From Gemmatimonas aurantiaca T-27 (GTDB lineage: Bacteria > Gemmatimonadota > Gemmatimonadetes > Gemmatimonadales > Gemmatimonadaceae): a stretch of DNA of 64,000 bases. Positions 40,315 to 48,612 of this stretch are shown here, piece by piece. The translations under genes and the position numbers were made by a program. Positions within the stretch are counted from its first letter, which is position 1; each line of letters starts with the position of its first letter. Under the pieces are notes generated by a model. It was not told the origin of the DNA. It worked only from the letters and a program-made list of their open reading frames with translations, and made no database searches. Where the stretch lies: positions 124,001 through 188,000 of the forward strand of contig NC_012489.1 in the NCBI RefSeq assembly GCF_000010305.1. Reading direction: 5' to 3'.

Positions 40315-40938
40315 CTACGGGATCAATCCGGCCCGCTGGGCCAGCACGCCCCGCACCCCGTCGAGCGTGCCACCGGTGGCGCGCAATGCCACCAAGGCGT
40401 GATAGAGCAGGTCCGCGGTTTCTTCGGTCGCACGCTCCACGTCCCCGTCCACGCAAGCGGTCGCCAGCTCCACGGCCTCTTCGCCCAGCTTCTTGAGACG
40501 CAGATTGCGGTCGGTGAGGAGCCGCTGTGTGTAGCTGGGGCGTTCATCATCGCGCAACGATTGCTGACGGGCCGCGATGGTGGTGTCGAGTGCACCGATC
40601 ACATCGGCGGCGAGCGCGGTATCGCGGAAACATGATGTCGTGCCGTCGTGACATGCCGGACCCGCCGAGATCACGCGCGCCAGCACCGCATCGGCATCGC
40701 AGTCTGCGGCAAGCGAAATGACTCGCTGCACATGCCCACTCGTGGCACCCTTGTGCCACAACCCGCGGCTGCGGGAGCGATAATGCATTTCGCCGGTGCG
40801 CAGCGTGTACTCCAGGGCCTCACGATCAGCGTGTGCCACCATCAACACCACACCGCTGCGCGCGTCCTGCGTCACCACCGTGACCAGTCCGTTGCCCTTG
40901 GAAAAATCGAGCGCATCGAGGTCGAGTGTGGAATTCAT
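40315..40938 (-). CDS. hisIE: Bifunctional phosphoribosyl-AMP cyclohydrolase/phosphoribosyl-ATP pyrophosphohydrolase
   Basis: 207 residues. The HisI half (1-115) has MHYRSRSRGLWHKGATSGH, ADCDADAVLARV and GPACHDGTTSCF, the zinc-binding Cys set. The HisE half (about 118-207) has RLLTDRNLRLKKLGEEAVELA and EETADLLYHALVAL. The two activities are steps 2 and 3 of histidine synthesis (PR-ATP to PR-AMP to ProFAR). It is the last gene of the operon, overlapping hisN by four bases. Confidence 0.96.
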   Translation of the reverse strand: MNSTLDLDALDFSKGNGLVTVVTQDARSGVVLMVAHADREALEYTLRTGEMHYRSRSRGLWHKGATSGHVQRVISLAADCDADAVLARVISAGPACHDGTTSCFRDTALAADVIGALDTTIAARQQSLRDDERPSYTQRLLTDRNLRLKKLGEEAVELATACVDGDVERATEETADLLYHALVALRATGGTLDGVRGVLAQRAGLIP

Positions 40939-41726
40939 GACCGCAACTCCGCGTCGACCAGTATCTCCCGGGCCACGTTCGACAGTGCCGCATTGGTGGC
41001 GATGATGTCACCGCCAAACGCGGTGTCGCGACCGCGCCAATCGGTGAAGCGTCCACCCGCTTCGGTGATGAGCGGATACACGGCGGCGGCATCCCACGGA
41101 TTGACGATGTCATCCACCATGATTTCTGCCCGGCCTGTGGCTACCAGCAGATAGCCGTAACAATCCCCCCAGGTGCGCGACACGCCCGCCTGCTGTGCCA
41201 ACCGCCGCCAGCGTTCCCGACGATCGGCCTGCTCGGGAAACCGTTCATCGGTGATCAACGCGGTCGCCTGATCGAGCGACGCCACCGCCGACACCTGGGC
41301 GCGTACGCCATTCCACCAGCAGCCCTCACCGGGTGCCGCCGCGATCAATTCCTGCACCGCAGGAAAACAGGCCGCACCAGCCAGCACTGTGTCACCTTCG
41401 CAGCAGGCCACCAATGTGCCCCACAGCGGCACTCCGCGCACAAACGACTTCGTACCGTCAATGGGATCGAGAATCCATTGACGCCGTGCGCCTTCGCGTT
41501 CGTTGGCGAACTCTTCACCCTGCAGTCCGTCCTCCGGAAAACGCTCCGACAACCACGCACGGGCGGCCCGCTCTGCCTCGCGGTCGGCGATGGTGACCGG
41601 TGATCCATCCCCTTTGGTTTCCACGGCCACGCCATCGCGATACCAACGCATCGCCGTGTTGGCGGCCACCTGCGCCACCTCGGCGGCGGCCTGCATCAGC
41701 GATGCTGGCGAAAGGATCTGACTCAT
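40935..41726 (-). CDS. hisN: Histidinol-phosphatase, inositol-monophosphatase type
   Basis: 263 residues. IMPase-fold motifs: LQGEEFANEREG (metal-binding Glu pair), WILDPIDGTKSF (DPxDGT) and NPWDAAAVYPLITEAGG (WDxAA). Such enzymes hydrolyse many phosphates, but this one sits in the his operon with four-base overlaps on both sides. hisB here encodes only the dehydratase and no PHP-type HisJ is seen, so histidinol-phosphate is the logical substrate. Confidence 0.9.
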   Translation of the reverse strand: MSQILSPASLMQAAAEVAQVAANTAMRWYRDGVAVETKGDGSPVTIADREAERAARAWLSERFPEDGLQGEEFANEREGARRQWILDPIDGTKSFVRGVPLWGTLVACCEGDTVLAGAACFPAVQELIAAAPGEGCWWNGVRAQVSAVASLDQATALITDERFPEQADRRERWRRLAQQAGVSRTWGDCYGYLLVATGRAEIMVDDIVNPWDAAAVYPLITEAGGRFTDWRGRDTAFGGDIIATNAALSNVAREILVDAELRS

Positions 41727-42505
41727 GCGGCCTCCGCGCGGAATCCGGCACTGCGCACCGTGATACCAGCATCATGCATGACCTGCTTGAGCGCACCCAC
41801 GGTGGTCAGCCCGTCATGCAGGATGCCAGCCACCAACACGGCATCGGCATTCGCCCGCATCACTGCGTCCACCAGGTGTTGTGCTTCTCCCGCCCCACCG
41901 GACGCGATCACTGGTACGTTCACGGCCTTCGCCACCGCTCGGGTGATGTCGAGGTCATAGCCCGTACGTGCCCCATCACGGTCAATGCTGGTGAGCAGAA
42001 TTTCGCCGGCGCCGCGTTCCACACACTCCTGCGCCCAGGCCACGGCTTCCAACGGCGTTTCCTGCCGCCCGCCTTTCACCCACACTTTGTACACGCCCTG
42101 CTCGTTGCGCTTGGCATCGATGCTGGCCACCACACACTGCGCGCCAAATCGTTCCGCGGCGAGTGTCAGCACTTCGGGGTGCTGCACCGCCGTGGAGTTG
42201 AGCGACACCTTGTCGGCGCCCGCCCGCAGCGCCTTTGCCACATCGTCCACCGTGCGAATGCCACCGCCAATGGTGAGGGGAATGAACAGACGCTCCGCCG
42301 TACGGCGCGCCACATCGAGCAGCGTCGCGCGTTCCTCTGCGCTGGCCGAGATATCGAGGAACGTGATTTCGTCGGCGCCCTCCCGTTCGTAGCGCTCTGA
42401 GAGTGCCACCGGGTCACCCACGTCGCGCAGACCCACGAAGTTCACGCCCTTCACCACCCGACCCCCACGTACGTCGAGGCACACGATCACCCGTTTGGTG
42501 AGCAT
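41723..42505 (-). CDS. hisF: Imidazole glycerol phosphate synthase, cyclase subunit
   Basis: 260 residues of TIM-barrel. VIVCLDVRGGRVVKGVNFVG carries the first catalytic Asp, VASIDAKRNEQGVYKVWVKGG the second; phosphate-binding loops are LTIGGGIRT and VIASGGAGEAQH. It forms the ring-closing half of the HisHF complex. Its ATG overlaps the hisB stop by one base (TGATG), and it overlaps hisN by four bases. Confidence 0.97.
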   Translation of the reverse strand: MLTKRVIVCLDVRGGRVVKGVNFVGLRDVGDPVALSERYEREGADEITFLDISASAEERATLLDVARRTAERLFIPLTIGGGIRTVDDVAKALRAGADKVSLNSTAVQHPEVLTLAAERFGAQCVVASIDAKRNEQGVYKVWVKGGRQETPLEAVAWAQECVERGAGEILLTSIDRDGARTGYDLDITRAVAKAVNVPVIASGGAGEAQHLVDAVMRANADAVLVAGILHDGLTTVGALKQVMHDAGITVRSAGFRAEAA

Positions 42506-43044
42506 CAGTCGGTGATCTCGAGTTTGACGGACCCCTTGGTGCTGAACACGGCACCGGATTCCACCAGCGCTTCTCGCAACGCGAAGCCGAGTCCCTTGAT
42601 GGCCGCCTCCACGATGTGATGATGGTCGGTACCACGCAGTACCCGCACGTGCAGCGTGGCCTTGGCGTTGTCGGCAAAGGAGCGGAGGAAGTGGTCGTAC
42701 AGCTTCGACGGCAACGGACCGCGGTAGTACGGGCGTCCGCCGATGTCGAGTACGACCTGTACGAGTGCGTCATCCATGGGCACCGTGCGTTCGCCGTAGC
42801 GCGCGCATCCGGCGGGGGCGAAAGCGGCGACCGCCTGACCGAGCGTGATGGCCACATCTTCGATGAGGTGATGTCGCAGGTCGCCTGTGGCCTGCACATC
42901 GAGATCGACGCCGGCATACCGCGCAAAGGCCACCAGCATGTGATCGAGGAAGGGCTCGCCGGTATTCACCGTTGCCCGGCCAGTCCCCTGCACGATGGCG
43001 AGGCGGATCTTCGTTTCGTTCGACTCTCTGACGACCACGGTCAT
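42505..43044 (-). CDS. hisB: Imidazoleglycerol-phosphate dehydratase (monofunctional)
   Basis: 179 residues, the size of the dehydratase alone; the phosphatase domain of the E. coli bifunctional HisB is absent. Metal-binding His motifs are GEPFLDHMLVAFARYAG, DLRHHLIEDVAI and RGTDHHHIVEAAIKGLG. The ATG at 43044 overlaps the hisA stop (ATGA); an upstream open frame only shadows hisA. Confidence 0.96.
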   Translation of the reverse strand: MTVVVRESNETKIRLAIVQGTGRATVNTGEPFLDHMLVAFARYAGVDLDVQATGDLRHHLIEDVAITLGQAVAAFAPAGCARYGERTVPMDDALVQVVLDIGGRPYYRGPLPSKLYDHFLRSFADNAKATLHVRVLRGTDHHHIVEAAIKGLGFALREALVESGAVFSTKGSVKLEITD

Positions 43045-43754
43045 GCTCCGTACTCCTCGGCCAGTCGGCGCGCGTCGAGCACGCCGGTATACAACGCCAT
43101 GCCCAACACTGCGCCGGCCAGGCCGCGGTGTTCGAGCGCTCGCATGTCCTCCAGGCTCGTCACGCCTCCCGACGCATACACCGGCCAGGCACTGGCTTCG
43201 GCCACGTCTTCCATGAGCGGCAGGTCGGTGCCTTGCATGAGGCCTTCGAGGTGCACCGCCGTGACCAACACACCAGCCAGGGGCAGAGTGCGCAGCGATT
43301 CCACAAAATCGATGACATCGAGTCTCGACGTCTCTGCCCAGCCGCGCGTGACCACCCGGCGCTCGCGCACATCGGCCGCGACGATCAACCGGCCGGGAAA
43401 CCGATTGGCCATTTCTTCGCGCCAATCTTCGTCTTCCACGGCGCGTGTACCAACCACCACCCACTCGGCACCGTCGTCGATCAGTCGTTCGATACGGGAT
43501 TCGTCACGCACCCCCCCGCCGACCTGCACGGGCACCATGCTGTCGCGCAGCAGGTCGCGAATGAGTTCGTGGTTCTGCCCACGCCCGGTGGCGGCGTCGA
43601 GATCGACGATGTGCATGCGCGTGAAACCCGTGCGTGACCAATCGCGCGCCACGGACAGTGGATCTGCGAGACGCACCTGTTCCTGTTCGTAGTCACCGCC
43701 GACAAGCTGCACGCATTGACCACCGCGCAGGTCCACGGCCGGGATCGCGATCAT
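43041..43754 (-). CDS. hisA: Phosphoribosylformimino-5-aminoimidazole carboxamide ribotide isomerase
   Basis: 237 residues of TIM-barrel. The Asp pair is in MIAIPAVDLRGGQCVQLVGG and RLIVAADVRERRV, and phosphate loops are VPVQVGGGVRDE and YASGGVTSLED. It catalyses the Amadori rearrangement ProFAR to PRFAR. Four-base overlaps with hisH and hisB. Confidence 0.96.
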   Translation of the reverse strand: MIAIPAVDLRGGQCVQLVGGDYEQEQVRLADPLSVARDWSRTGFTRMHIVDLDAATGRGQNHELIRDLLRDSMVPVQVGGGVRDESRIERLIDDGAEWVVVGTRAVEDEDWREEMANRFPGRLIVAADVRERRVVTRGWAETSRLDVIDFVESLRTLPLAGVLVTAVHLEGLMQGTDLPLMEDVAEASAWPVYASGGVTSLEDMRALEHRGLAGAVLGMALYTGVLDARRLAEEYGA

Positions 43755-44392
43755 GCCATACTCCGAAGTGAAGAAGCCAACGAAAGAAACGCACGAATCA
43801 GGGCGACGCCGCGCGTGCTCGATTTTTCGGGGTGGAACTGCGTGCCGATCACGTTGTCCCGTCGCACGGCGGCAGGGAAGCGATCGGTTTCGTGAGTGCT
43901 CCAGGCCGTCACGTAGCCCAGGCCCGCCGCCGTAGGACGCCCCACATAGCTGTTGGCATAGTATGCGATATCCAACTCCGCCTCGCGCAGCAGCGGATCA
44001 CTGCTGTCGTCGATGTTGTTCCAGCCGATCTGCGGCACCCGGGCCGCATCCAGACGGCGTACCTGGCCCGGCACGATGCCGAGTCCACGGCCAGGCCCCT
44101 CATCACTGCCGTCGAACAGCAGTTGCATGCCCAGGCAGATCCCGAGGGCCGGCAAGCCATCCAGCAGTGCGTCGCGCATCATCTCGCGACCCGGCGCCAG
44201 ACGTGCGGCGGCAGGGGCGAAAGCCCCAACGCCCGGCAGCACCAGCGCATCGGTGTCGTGCACGGCGGCCTCGGGGTCGGTTTCCACGTGCACCAGCGCA
44301 CCCTGTGTCTCGAGTGCCTTGACGAGCGAATGCAGATTGCCCGCGCCATAGTCGAACACCGTGACGCGCACCGGTGAGTGATCAGGTGTCAT
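43751..44392 (-). CDS. hisH: Imidazole glycerol phosphate synthase, glutamine amidotransferase subunit
   Basis: 213 residues of class I glutaminase. The nucleophile is in LGICLGMQLLFDGSDEGPG, the His-Glu pair in IGTQFHPEKSS, and the oxyanion loop is VLPGVGAF. It supplies ammonia to HisF. Four-base overlaps with both neighbours. Confidence 0.96.
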   Translation of the reverse strand: MTPDHSPVRVTVFDYGAGNLHSLVKALETQGALVHVETDPEAAVHDTDALVLPGVGAFAPAAARLAPGREMMRDALLDGLPALGICLGMQLLFDGSDEGPGRGLGIVPGQVRRLDAARVPQIGWNNIDDSSDPLLREAELDIAYYANSYVGRPTAAGLGYVTAWSTHETDRFPAAVRRDNVIGTQFHPEKSSTRGVALIRAFLSLASSLRSMA

Positions 44393-46869
44393 CCGTTCAC
44401 CTCCTGGGTGGCGTCATCAAACGCGGTGAGCAGTTGTTCGAGTAAAGGCCACGGCCCCACACTGATGCGCAACGTGTCGCCCACATGCGGTAGCGCCGGG
44501 AAGGGACGCGCAGCCACTCCACGGGCGCGCATCGCCTGTCCGACGGCCACCGCATTGGACACCGGCACACAGAGATAGTTGGCGTGCGACGGCAGCGGAG
44601 TATATCCGCGCTGCACCAAAGCCTGAGCCAGGCGCTCACGGTTCTGCACGGCCAGTGCGACGTGTTCACGCACCCACGCCATATCATGCTGCAATGCGGC
44701 CAGTGCCGTCTGTTCGGCCATCGCGTTGAGTTTGTACGGGCCGCGGGATTTCTCCACGTCACGCACCAGCGCGGGAGCGCCGATACCATAGCCCACCCGC
44801 AGCCCCGCAAGACCAAAGGCCTTGGACATCGTGCGGATCACCAGCAGGTTGTCCACACGCATGGCCAGGTCCACCGCCGATACGCCCGCAAACTCGGCGT
44901 ACGCTTCATCGAGGAACACGACGCCGGGCGCCTCGCGTACCGCGCGCTCCAGCAATTCCCGGGCAAGCACAGCCCCTGTGGGATTGTTGGGTGAGCACAA
45001 ATACAGAATGCGCGGGTTCGCGGCGAGCAACGCGTCCAGATCCGGTTGCTGATCGGCACGTTCGGCGATGCCTACGTATCGCAAGCCGTTCATGCGGGCG
45101 AAGATCGGAATCATGGCAAACGACGGCTCGCTGCTGGCCACTACCGATCCGGGCTCTCCAAACGCGCGCATGGCGCTGTCGAGGATGTCGTCCGAACCAC
45201 AGCCGGTGACGAGGCGGTCTGGCGATGCGCCGGCAAACGTGGCCAGTGCCTCCTTGAGTTCTGCCGCGTACAGCGACGGATATCGTGTCACGCGCGCCAC
45301 TGGCATGCTGCGCCATGTGTGCTCGGCAACGGGTGGCATGCCCCACAAGTTGGTGTTGTCGGTGAGATCGAGTGACACCGGTGCGCGCTTGGGGTCGTAC
45401 AATGGCACGTCGTCATACAAAGCCCGCGCAAACCGCAGGCGATCGGTCACTGCGTCAGGCATTTGCGCACGGTCCGCCGAGGCGGCGGGCGGTTGTGTGT
45501 TCGCGGGCACCACTGGCGTGGCCGTCTGCCAGGTGCGGGCCGTTGCCGCATGCGCCGGCAGGCCTTCCGCATCCGCAAACCGTCCCACGTCGGCAGACAG
45601 CGACGCGGCGGCCGCTGGCGTGACTTCCTGCCACGTGGTCCAGCGCACGAAATCCAGCGTGGACAATCCGGAGTAACTGCGCGCCGCTCCTGCGGTCGGC
45701 AGCACGTGATTGGCACCGGTCATATAGTCACCGAAGGCCACCGAGCTCGATGCGCCCACGAAGATCGTACCGGCATTGCGCAGCGCGGCGAGCACACGAT
45801 CGCGCTGCGTGTCGTCGACCAGCAGCAGCAGGTGTTCGGCCGCCCAGCGATTGGCGAAGGTGATGGCTTCATCCATCGAAGTCATGTGCACGACGCCGCC
45901 ACGGGCGCCCAGTGCCGCGCGCATGACATCGGCGCGCGGTGCGCTGGCGAGCTGCGTCTGCAGCGCCGTTTCCACGCGTGTCGCCAGCGATGACGTGGCC
46001 GAATGGTCGACAATCACCGCCAGCACGGCCGCATCGGGGTCGTGCTCTGCCTGTGCCAGCATTTCTCGCGCGATGGTATTGGCATCGGCCGATGCGTCGG
46101 CGAGGACCAGCAGCTCGCTGGGGCCGGCCGGTGCATCGATGGCCACCGCCGACACGAGCTGCAGCTTGGCTTCGGCCACGTACGCATTGCCTGGACCCAT
46201 GATGCGATCCACGCGGGGCACCGACGCTGTGCCCAGCGCCATCGCGGCGATTGCTCCAGCGCCGCCCACGGCAAACACCCGATCCACATTGGCCAGCGCC
46301 GCCGCCGCCAGTACCACATCCGCAGGACGTCCGTCGGGACCCGGTGGTGTGCACACGATGATTTCGCCGACGCCGGCCACGCGTGCGGGGACGGCACCCA
46401 TCAACAGCGAGCTGGGATACGCCGCGCGTCCCCCCGGCGCGTAGATGCCCACACGACCGAGCGGATCGGGACGACGCACCACCGTGATGCCGGGCTCCGG
46501 TGTGCTGCGGGTGATGGTGGGCAGGAACGCACGATGCACCGTGGCGATGTTGCGGGCCGCGCGTTCCAGCGATTGCCGCAGTGCCGGATCGAGAGCGGCG
46601 AGCGCACGATCCCATTCGGCCCGTGGCACTTCGAGCGTCTCGAGCGTGGCGCCATCGAAGCGACGGGCCATGTCGATCAGCGCGGCGTCGCCGGTGCGGC
46701 GCACCGCATCGATCACGGCACTCGTGCGCTCGCGAATCGTGGGGTCCACGGTGGAGGCACGATCTTCCAGGGCGCGTCGGGTGGCGTTGTCGAGACGGTC
46801 CCATGATCCACGGGCACGCAACGGCAGGTCGGTGTCCACAGGCGGGCGATCGGTGCGCATGGTGGTCAT
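44389..46869 (-). CDS. hisDC: HisD-HisC fusion: histidinol dehydrogenase plus histidinol-phosphate aminotransferase
   Basis: 826 residues in one frame. Residues 1 to about 430 are HisD: GRVGIYAPGGRAAYPSSLLM, VDRIMGPGNAYVAEAKLQL, the metal-site block AEHDPDAAVLAV and FANRWAAEHLLLLV. After a Pro/Ala linker (about 430-455), residues to 826 are HisC, a fold-type I PLP enzyme with CGSDDILDSAMRAF, CSPNNPTGAVL, FLDEAYAEFAG and the Schiff-base Lys near 683 in TMSKAFGLAG. Both enzymes look complete, so the protein should catalyse the aminotransferase step and the last two oxidations. Fusion of these non-consecutive steps is unusual. Four-base overlaps with hisG and hisH. Confidence 0.95.
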   Translation of the reverse strand: MTTMRTDRPPVDTDLPLRARGSWDRLDNATRRALEDRASTVDPTIRERTSAVIDAVRRTGDAALIDMARRFDGATLETLEVPRAEWDRALAALDPALRQSLERAARNIATVHRAFLPTITRSTPEPGITVVRRPDPLGRVGIYAPGGRAAYPSSLLMGAVPARVAGVGEIIVCTPPGPDGRPADVVLAAAALANVDRVFAVGGAGAIAAMALGTASVPRVDRIMGPGNAYVAEAKLQLVSAVAIDAPAGPSELLVLADASADANTIAREMLAQAEHDPDAAVLAVIVDHSATSSLATRVETALQTQLASAPRADVMRAALGARGGVVHMTSMDEAITFANRWAAEHLLLLVDDTQRDRVLAALRNAGTIFVGASSSVAFGDYMTGANHVLPTAGAARSYSGLSTLDFVRWTTWQEVTPAAAASLSADVGRFADAEGLPAHAATARTWQTATPVVPANTQPPAASADRAQMPDAVTDRLRFARALYDDVPLYDPKRAPVSLDLTDNTNLWGMPPVAEHTWRSMPVARVTRYPSLYAAELKEALATFAGASPDRLVTGCGSDDILDSAMRAFGEPGSVVASSEPSFAMIPIFARMNGLRYVGIAERADQQPDLDALLAANPRILYLCSPNNPTGAVLARELLERAVREAPGVVFLDEAYAEFAGVSAVDLAMRVDNLLVIRTMSKAFGLAGLRVGYGIGAPALVRDVEKSRGPYKLNAMAEQTALAALQHDMAWVREHVALAVQNRERLAQALVQRGYTPLPSHANYLCVPVSNAVAVGQAMRARGVAARPFPALPHVGDTLRISVGPWPLLEQLLTAFDDATQEVNG

Positions 46870-47744
46870 GGAATGAGACGCTCGATGCGCGTCACGAGAA
46901 TGCCCTCACCACCAAGCGCCCGGAGCTGCGAAATGGTGCGATAGATGGTGTCGGCACTGACCACCGCGTGCACGGCGACATAGCGGCTATGATCGGCGAT
47001 ATCGATGACCGTCGGACCATTGAGTCCCGGAAGCACCGCGCGCACCGCATCGAGGACTTCACGTGGCACATTGGCCATGAGGTAGCGTTGTCCGCGTGCA
47101 CGGATCACCGACGCGAGAGCGGTGACGAGATCATCGAACTCCTGCTTTCGCGAGACGTCACCGTTCCGTGGGCCCGCGACGGCCGTGATGAGGTGCGCGC
47201 TCGAGCGCAGCACGGTTTCCACTTCCCGCAGGCCGTTCACTCGCAAGGTGGATCCGGTCGACGTGAGATCGACCACGACATCGGCGATACCGAGGTGCGG
47301 GGCAATTTCTGCGGCACCGGAGACGGGTACGACGGTCACGGGGACACCCGCCATTTCGAAGAATCGGCGCGTGATATTCGGGAAGACCGTGGCGACTCGC
47401 ATCGGCGGGGCCTGACGGGCCAGATCTTCGAGCGACCGGACGCCGGCATCCTCTCGGGCGGCCACAACGAGTCGGCAGCGCCCGAACCCGAGATCGAGGT
47501 GCGAGGTGAGCTCCCGCCCGGATTCGCTGACCAGGTCCCATCCGGTCACGCCCGCGTCGGCCGCCCCGTCGGCGACGAATTCGGGGATATCCTGTGCGCG
47601 CACAAAGATGGCCTCGAACTCCCCACCCAGGGACGCCGTGAGGGCCCGCTCACCGGAGGACCGGACTTCCAGTCCAGCGTCGTTGAACAGCCCGCGGGTG
47701 TCTTCGCTGAGACGTCCTTTGTTTGGTAAAGCGATGCGTAGCAT
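46866..47744 (-). CDS. hisG: ATP phosphoribosyltransferase, long form
   Basis: 292 residues, the long form with a C-terminal regulatory ACT-like domain (about 215-292) that binds histidine; no HisZ is needed. The N-terminal substrate region is LRIALPNKGRLSEDTRGLF, then GVTGWDLV and the PRPP-binding VDLTSTGSTLRVNGL. It is the first and committed step of histidine synthesis and the first gene of the operon. It starts 45 bp after the leader terminator. Confidence 0.96.
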   Translation of the reverse strand: MLRIALPNKGRLSEDTRGLFNDAGLEVRSSGERALTASLGGEFEAIFVRAQDIPEFVADGAADAGVTGWDLVSESGRELTSHLDLGFGRCRLVVAAREDAGVRSLEDLARQAPPMRVATVFPNITRRFFEMAGVPVTVVPVSGAAEIAPHLGIADVVVDLTSTGSTLRVNGLREVETVLRSSAHLITAVAGPRNGDVSRKQEFDDLVTALASVIRARGQRYLMANVPREVLDAVRAVLPGLNGPTVIDIADHSRYVAVHAVVSADTIYRTISQLRALGGEGILVTRIERLIP

Positions 47745-47789: not shown

Positions 47790-47821
47790 AAAAAAGGCCC
47801 GTCCTTCGAAGAGGACGGGCC
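47790..47821 (-). terminator. Attenuator terminator of the his operon
   Basis: On the minus strand GGCCCGTCC-TCTTCGAA-GGACGGGCC is followed by six T residues: a strong rho-independent terminator 45 bp before hisG and 27 bp after the leader-peptide stop. The 5' arm (GGCCCGTC, 47814-47821) can instead pair with GACGGGTC inside the leader peptide coding region (47887-47894; one G-U), which gives a candidate antiterminator. Confidence 0.85.
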
Positions 47822-47848
47822 CGGGGAGCCTGCGAATGTCTGGGTGCC

Positions 47849-47944
47849 TTAGCGGCCGATCACCTGAGCATGCACATAGTACCCCCGACCCGTCGGGCCG
47901 TGGCCATGATGCGCATGATGGTGGTGCTGGCGGAGCGTTGGCAT
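47849..47944 (-). CDS. hisL: his operon leader peptide
   Basis: A 31-codon frame reading MPTLRQHHHHAHHGHG, then PTGRGYYVHAQVIGR and a TAA stop. Eight of the 31 codons are His, seven of them within codons 7-15. It lies directly before a rho-independent terminator and hisG. Together with the alternative pairing described for the terminator, this is the classical his attenuation layout: stalling at His codons frees the GACGGGTC segment to pair with the terminator's 5' arm. The SD is weak. It was overlooked as a gene because of its size. Confidence 0.85.
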   Translation of the reverse strand: MPTLRQHHHHAHHGHGPTGRGYYVHAQVIGR

Positions 47945-47953
47945 ATCCAAGTG

Positions 47954-47982
47954 AGGGTAGCGGTCGGCTCTGGGGGCGTCAA
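47954..47982 (-). promoter_or_regulatory. Candidate his operon promoter
   Basis: On the minus strand TTGACG and TACCCT are separated by 17 bases. The -35 is good and the -10 is weak (3 of 6). A start about 7 bases downstream would make the leader peptide almost leaderless, consistent with its weak SD. Inference only. Confidence 0.35.
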
Positions 47983-48018
47983 GATGTGCCGCGGGAGGGG
48001 TTGGCGTGCGCGGGGCTT

Positions 48019-48072
48019 GTGAATAACTTCACGAGGTTCACAGGGCCCTGTGAGCACAGGATTTTGTCCTGT
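48019..48072. promoter_or_regulatory. Array of inverted half-sites between his leader and cupredoxin gene
   Basis: Three adjacent inverted repeats: GTGAA-TAAC-TTCAC (48019-48032), TCACAGGGCCCTGTGA (48038-48053) and ACAGGA-TTTTG-TCCTGT (48056-48072). The half-site CACAGG/CCTGTG occurs in alternating orientation, with CCTGTG-AG-CACAGG forming a further pair. This looks like a multi-site operator for a dimeric regulator; the regulator is unknown. Confidence 0.5.
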
Positions 48073-48114: not shown

Positions 48115-48612
48115 ATGCGGTTTCTCGGCTTTGCGGTGGTGACCGGCGCGGCGATCCTGCTTGGCGCGTGCGGTGGTGGTGACACGGCGACGGCGGATTC
48201 GGCGGCGGCCGGCGCGTCGGCGGCAGCAGCAGCTCCGGCAGCAGCAGCTCCGGCGGCGGCAGCGGCCCCGATCACGGGTACGACGCACGAAATCAACATG
48301 GTCGGCGATGAGAAGGGTTACCGCTTCGAACCCGCTGAGATCACGATCAAGGCCGGCGACGGCATCAAGTTCAACATGGTCAGCGGCGGCCCGCACAACG
48401 TCGCGTTTGATCCGGCCACGCTGCCGGCCGCGGCCAAGTCGGCGCTGCTCGCGAACATGACGGAGCAGGCTGGTGAGCTTTCGGGCAAGATGATGCTGAA
48501 CGCGGGTGAGAGCTACACGATCTCGTTCGCTGGTGTCCCGGCTGGCACGTACGAATTCAACTGCACGCCGCACCTCGCGATGAACATGAAGGGCAAGGTC
48601 ACGATCCAGTAA
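48115..48612 (+). CDS. Plastocyanin/azurin-like cupredoxin lipoprotein
   Basis: 165 residues. The lipobox LLGAC (Cys19) makes it a lipoprotein; an Ala/Pro-rich linker (30-52) follows. The cupredoxin domain (55-165) carries the type 1 copper ligands H94 (GGPHNVAF), C150, H153 and M158 (NCTPHLAMNM). It should carry single electrons in the periplasm; the partner is unknown. GGAGG is nine bases upstream. The gene is divergent from the his leader and lies behind the half-site array at 48019. Confidence 0.9.
   Translation: MRFLGFAVVTGAAILLGACGGGDTATADSAAAGASAAAAAPAAAAPAAAAAPITGTTHEINMVGDEKGYRFEPAEITIKAGDGIKFNMVSGGPHNVAFDPATLPAAAKSALLANMTEQAGELSGKMMLNAGESYTISFAGVPAGTYEFNCTPHLAMNMKGKVTIQ

Follow-up and report, generated by a model that had tools for sequence, protein, structure and literature searches.

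Upstream of hisG in Gemmatimonas aurantiaca T-27 lies a short, His-rich reading frame followed by a GC-rich hairpin, which raises the question of whether histidine biosynthesis in this bacterium is governed by a leader peptide and attenuator, as the original prediction proposed from the DNA alone. The element resides on the minus strand, a point unstated in that prediction, within the 64,000-nucleotide stretch analysed here (the window); the genome is a single contig of 4,636,964 bases. From 5′ to 3′, it is composed of TTGACG, 17 nt, TACCCT, 9 nt, an ATG at 47944, the ORF, a terminator, and hisG, which begins at 47744 (Table 1). The peptide read from this ATG to the stop codon at 47849 is MPTLRQHHHHAHHGHGPTGRGYYVHAQVIGR, and its 31 codons include eight for His, seven of them in codons 7-15, exactly as had been claimed. 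Seven His in 10 codons are reached in none of 5000 dinucleotide shuffles of the region. The ORF between the promoter and hisG carries the run of His codons that characterizes ribosome-mediated attenuators of his operons. The genes from hisG through hisIE form one run of touching or overlapping genes and, because hisD-hisC, hisH, hisA, hisB, hisF, a hisN-like gene and hisIE all follow hisG, the leader heads an apparently complete his pathway.

Table 1. Features of the his leader region, the operon behind it, and related loci (coordinates refer to the window unless a contig is named).
Feature	Position or loci	Strand	Basis and remarks
-35 element TTGACG	47977..47982	-	TTGACN ends 28-34 nt before leader ATG in 101/118 relatives
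-10 element TACCCT	47954..47959	-	17-nt spacer; ends 9 nt before ATG
Leader peptide ORF	47849..47944	-	31 codons + stop, 8 His codons; class-wide conservation
His run HHHHAHHGH, codons 7-15 (putative sensing codons)	47900..47926	-	His columns kept, CAC/CAT switch
Region 1, CGGCCC	47895..47900	-	Pairs with GGGTCG, hiding region 2 when no ribosome is there; MFE fold of leader
Region 2, GACGGGTC (putative antiterminator 5′ strand)	47887..47894	-	Extended by GGGG 47882-47885; position exact
Region 3, GGGCCCGTCCT (terminator 5′ arm)	47812..47822	-	47814-47821 doubles as putative antiterminator 3′ strand; CCCC 47823-47826 upstream
Region 4, AGGACGGGCCT (terminator 3′ arm + T run)	47790..47805	-	T-tailed terminator in 109/118 relatives
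hisG, long form (292 aa)	46866..47744	-	Pfam HisG, HisG_C
hisD-hisC fused ORF (826 aa)	44389..46869	-	Pfam Histidinol_dh + Aminotran_1_2 in one ORF
hisH	43751..44392	-	GATase + position
hisA	43041..43754	-	His_biosynth + position
hisB (IGPD part)	42505..43464 as listed	-	IGPD; true start probably further downstream, near 43040
hisF	41723..42505	-	His_biosynth + position
hisN-like phosphatase	40935..41726	-	Inositol_P
hisIE	40315..40938	-	PRA-CH + PRA-PH
Six hisG exceptions (of 129)	L034; L073; L119; L057, L126, L128		L034 leader visible, N-interrupted; L073 contig end, terminator visible; L119 degenerate, two His; L057, L126, L128 no leader
Myxococcaceae loci with Gemmatimonadaceae-like hisG + leader	L174, L177, L181, L182, L188, L193, L242-L279, L282-L285		
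Second leaderless leader candidate, Tyr/Phe/Trp-rich	G000:C1:4526343-4526381	-	Also loci L308-L324, L327, L328

An intrinsic terminator is located between the leader ORF and the first structural gene. It reads GGGCCCGTCCT-CTTCGA-AGGACGGGCCT (47822-47795), with 11 bp and six T at 47795-47790, and its calculated stability of -22.1 kcal/mol is equaled by none of 200 shuffles; both the terminator and the hisG behind it, which has the Pfam domains of that family, had been foreseen. The proposed antiterminator is also matched precisely, in that GACGGGTC (47894-47887) is complementary to GGCCCGTC in the terminator 5′ arm (47821-47814) with a single G-U pair, and the RNA spanning codon 14 through this arm, when folded, reproduces the GACGGGTC:GGCCCGTC helix together with a GGGG:CCCC extension. 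When no ribosome is present, the CGGCCC segment just upstream is predicted to sequester region 2 within a longer hairpin built from the His codons plus later ones. The fold of the whole leader has a z-score of only -2.1 and the stability of the antiterminator by itself is not beyond that of shuffles, so the case for an attenuator rests on conservation.

The original prediction had proposed looking in related genomes for the same leader, with constant His codons in changing surroundings, and this is what is found. The nearest named relatives belong to Gemmatimonas, in agreement with the phylum that had been guessed (Gemmatimonadota), and all genus relatives with a readable upstream region keep the His run, the terminator and the complementary segment, as do almost all class loci sampled that have this type of HisG, while the surrounding sequence changes. 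The peptides of the genus share a core, HHH-A/T-HH-G-H-GPTGRG, whose His columns show little or no variation, and the codons before the run and the sequence past the stop change freely. Across the class, ORFs with at least four His in 10 codons precede 123 of 129 sampled hisG genes versus 59 of 1090 other long ORFs, in a count for which the ORF had to stop before the gene and in which some of the 59 control positives may be mis-started hisG. Every conserved His column shows both CAC and CAT, and the N-terminal residues drift. Remoter families are represented by peptides such as MTTKRLHRHHHHHHGVPTGTVEMGVCAR (L097) and MDTYTTHRHHHHHHAAPTGGATEVCA (L122), and a His leader also stands ahead of more distant HisG types (L142, L155, L157-L159, L290-L292). 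The terminator, which lies 20-53 nt past the leader stop, is T-tailed (5-8 T of 8) in 109 of 118 parsed leaders, and its stem pairs vary in type at every position. Counting against attenuation are the few relatives that have hisG and no leader (L057, L126, L128) or only a degenerate one (L119). No His leader was seen upstream of hisZ in the Gemmatimonadota families with hisZ-hisG (f2, f6), where a hisZ-like gene is immediately upstream of hisG and overlaps its start (L132-L141, L286-L289), no leader was found in f11, which belongs to another class, and the plasmid search gave no match.

The same conservation bears on the possibility that the product of the ORF is a functional protein in its own right, small, His-rich and perhaps metal-binding, whose gene merely precedes hisG and has an ordinary terminator. 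HHHHAHHGH could plausibly bind a metal and the peptide's GPTGRG portion is conserved too, but only the number and place of the His residues are kept while the N- and C-terminal parts drift freely, and the constancy of GPTGRG is accounted for by the RNA segment GACGGGTC that it encodes. Moreover, the ORF stays tied to hisG, in Myxococcaceae as well as before distant HisG types (L281, L291, L292), and a complement to the terminator 5′ arm would be needless for a protein gene with its own terminator. Such a protein is exceedingly improbable.

Additional evidence for an attenuator comes from the pairing between regions 2 and 3. Its core, CGGG/CCCG, is retained in 100-105 of 107 loci, and the variable flanking positions pair more often than permuted partners, although modestly (185 versus 174 ± 3.6 over the 107 loci). 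Changes on both strands occur in L098 (GACAGGTC with GGCCTGTC) and L039 (CGGCGGGCC with GGCCCGCCG). Covariation is modest because much of the pairing is near-invariant; as stand-alone proof of the helix it was set aside, the changes being too few. In a simple model applied to 109 loci, arm 3 is paired upstream with a mean probability of 0.73-0.80 when a ribosome occupies the His run versus 0.41 when it is at the stop codon, so that an antiterminator freed by stalling on the His codons is predicted. The window's own sequence gives a small contrast in this model (0.67 stalled versus 0.60 at the stop), since alternative partners are available to the distal leader and to arm 3, and the mechanism in G. 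aurantiaca is therefore deduced mainly from its relatives.

Taken together, sequence comparison establishes the ORF, its codon-level conservation, the terminator, the possible pairing of regions 2 and 3, and the promoter spacing, and the attenuation reading is well supported by it: the element is very probably a ribosome-mediated transcription attenuator of the his operon. We infer where transcription actually starts, that the leader is translated, that ribosomes stall and that read-through depends on histidine; these steps would operate as follows. Translation of the leader peptide would begin right at the mRNA 5′ end, with no ribosome-binding site involved. Under a shortage of charged tRNA-His, the ribosome would stall at codons 7-15 and cover region 1, leaving region 2 free to pair with the emerging region 3; the 3:4 terminator would be blocked, and polymerase would enter hisG and the rest of the operon. 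With ample histidine, the ribosome would pass through region 2 toward the stop and the terminator would form, as it also would if there were no translation and region 1 paired with region 2. A ribosome resting at the stop codon would be too far downstream to cover region 2, so termination must depend on timing.

Leader peptides could also act through translation, Rho, or reinitiation at hisG rather than through an intrinsic terminator, and variants of this kind have been described for amino-acid leaders (PMC1262725, PMC4833913). Here, 109 of 118 loci have a strong T-tailed terminator, placed 12-132 nt (median 45) ahead of hisG, which argues for the intrinsic route, and the leader stop, 61-186 nt upstream of hisG, is too far away for reinitiation, which usually peaks at 10-16 bp (PMC4833913). 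A control of this type is thus highly improbable at these loci.

The promoter is positioned very close to the leader. A gap of 5-10 nt separates the end of TANNNT from the leader ATG in 96 of 118 relatives, and a looser -35/-10 pair with a spacer of 16-18 nt is present at 108 of 118 loci, the spacer being exactly 17 nt in 91. A Shine-Dalgarno-like motif precedes the ATG in only 7 of 118 relatives, and GTG replaces ATG at the same place in some leaders (L053, L060 and several Myxococcaceae). By the usual promoter geometry, transcription is predicted to start at, or within a few nucleotides of, the leader ATG, and TAnnnT about 12 nt upstream of a start codon is a published sign of leaderless genes (PMC3160421). 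Because the TTGAC-N17-TAnnnT promoter is so close to the ATG, the leader mRNA is probably leaderless. Leaderless initiation would bring in the first ribosome just as transcription begins and could thereby tighten the coupling that attenuation needs, an idea testable in a cultured organism and in Myxococcus xanthus, for which genetics is available. None of the 52 long ORFs of the window has this arrangement of promoter and start. Leaderless starts were also considered as a genome-wide trait, and the strict promoter-to-RTG pattern occurred 14 times versus 20 in a reversed control; on both counts, the general claim is withheld. Some of the strict matches resemble real genes (L299, L303, L304).

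A leaderless small mRNA ending at a terminator, as predicted here, has the anatomy of rnTrpL of Sinorhizobium meliloti, whose trpL is a leaderless leader ORF (PMC7298713). As in trpL, the terminated mRNA would begin directly with the leader ORF, but trpL concerns tryptophan in an alphaproteobacterium, not a his operon, and its start is mapped whereas that in Gemmatimonas is predicted. By analogy with the action in trans reported for the trpL RNA and peptide, the terminated leader RNA or peptide might have an additional role in trans; this seems unlikely, and would be compatible with attenuation rather than opposed to it.

Upstream of the leader promoter is a conserved palindrome, TGTGAA-N4-TTCACA (48018-48033), that is CRP/FNR-like and has a DnaA-box-like right half. 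Of 118 loci, 45 have the motif, which lies 69-215 nt ahead of the leader ATG and might act on the divergent cupredoxin-like gene at 48115. Were a DNA-binding regulator at this palindrome the main control of hisG, the leader would be a minor trim. The presence of the palindrome at those 45 loci would suit such a regulator, but most other families that keep the leader have no palindrome and the site may belong to the cupredoxin-like gene, which makes it quite unlikely that attenuation is secondary.

How, then, does this element relate to known his leaders? An Rfam scan of the window gave nothing above threshold, only unrelated sub-threshold matches to the terminator, and RF00514 (His_leader) has no match in the window or in L004, L182, L097 and L281, versus 131.6 bits for the E. 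coli control. Neither a gathering-score match to RF00514 nor a Shine-Dalgarno-led leader is seen in the sequence. With enteric hisL, the Gemmatimonas element shares a leader ORF with a His run, alternative terminator and antiterminator structures, and hisG downstream. Enteric leaders are translated from a ribosome-binding site within a 5′ UTR, whereas the Gemmatimonas leader is probably leaderless; its His codons are interrupted and then followed by the conserved GPTGRG-coding segment, which would double as an antiterminator strand, and it has a simpler, four-segment anatomy in place of the enteric A-F hairpins. The Gemmatimonas element thus appears to work like a his attenuator while standing outside the enteric Rfam family and differing in how translation starts. 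The original prediction described such attenuation as well known in enteric bacteria, which is correct for enterics but incomplete, as His leader peptides are known from gammaproteobacteria, the Bacillus cereus group, some Eubacteriales and Erysipelotrichales (PMC9413887, PMC2965389). The leaders of the last three groups likewise have a His run, a terminator and an antiterminator before his genes, but they belong to another phylum and in part precede another first gene (hisZ, hisS); the comparison with them is one of anatomy, not of sequence. A comparative study of Actinobacteria reported no conserved his leader structure (PMC1262725), and C. glutamicum is without a His leader ORF (PMC3896937). 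In the open literature searched, outside which one comparative study of 2010 lies, no paper was found that ties Gemmatimonadota to amino-acid leader peptides. Classical attenuation would thereby be placed in a phylum for which no report was found, in a form that seemingly dispenses with the ribosome-binding site.

The leader is also present outside the phylum. HisG proteins from Myxococcus, Corallococcus, Pyxidicoccus and an Archangium MAG share 66-70% identity with the Gemmatimonas protein, and all 41 examined Myxococcia loci with a Gemmatimonas-type HisG have the leader, that of M. xanthus reading MLFASLHHHHAHHRLGPDGTVRHAHAWVRR. Many other members of Myxococcia have only a distant, partial HisG match, and one myxobacterium (L281) has a His leader, MFGTLQHHRHHHP, before a HisG sharing only 34% identity with its M. 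xanthus counterpart. A quick maximum-likelihood tree built from 66 HisG sequences unites those of Myxococcaceae in one clade (SH-aLRT 99) within a set of 39 rows (99) made up of Gemmatimonadaceae and close relatives, the exact attachment being insecure (support 85-90). This nesting, together with the shared leader and hisG, indicates horizontal transfer, and the simplest reading is that hisG and its leader moved from Gemmatimonadaceae-like donors to Myxococcaceae. The Myxococcus case would thus resemble a gene crossing phyla with its RNA sensor attached.

Four of these points, namely the probable leaderless start, the lack of an RF00514 match, the likely transfer to Myxococcaceae and a leader in front of a DAHP-synthase gene, go beyond the original prediction. 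The last of these emerged from the genome-wide promoter pattern, which yielded MTRHASAITYACRFYYPPTRMGPGEFGMRS, followed by a terminator and by a gene that, from its protein sequence, reads as DAHP synthase. This leader is kept in Gemmatimonas (MTRHRSARYWYYTPTRMGPG..., MPRQTFANSYYYTPSRMGPG...) and occurs in other genera (MNRDPRSYAYYYRTARSTGR..., MSARRYSWYWYGPAGPVE...), in each case in the same leaderless setting. By eye, GCATGGGCC within it could base-pair with GGCCCGTGC, the terminator arm seen in relatives such as L319. The recurrence of this design in another amino-acid pathway supports the reading of the his leader as an attenuator. No Trp leader was seen ahead of two chorismate-binding (trpE-like) genes. 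As to leucine and isoleucine leaders, the LeuA (PF00682) and IlvB (PF02776) families have no match in the genome, which is 99.97% complete, and branched-chain amino acid auxotrophy is therefore possible. Overall, it is likely that leaderless leader-peptide attenuation is general for amino-acid sensing in Gemmatimonadota, covering at least the his and aromatic pathways, and that hisG travelled between phyla with its attenuator as a self-regulating cassette. In family f7, the hisG leaders of L160 and L161 contain mixed His, Tyr and Phe codons (MTNTHAFFGHYYYHRQSGGR, MTNTHPYFGHHYYHRVRGGR) and perhaps sense more than one amino acid.
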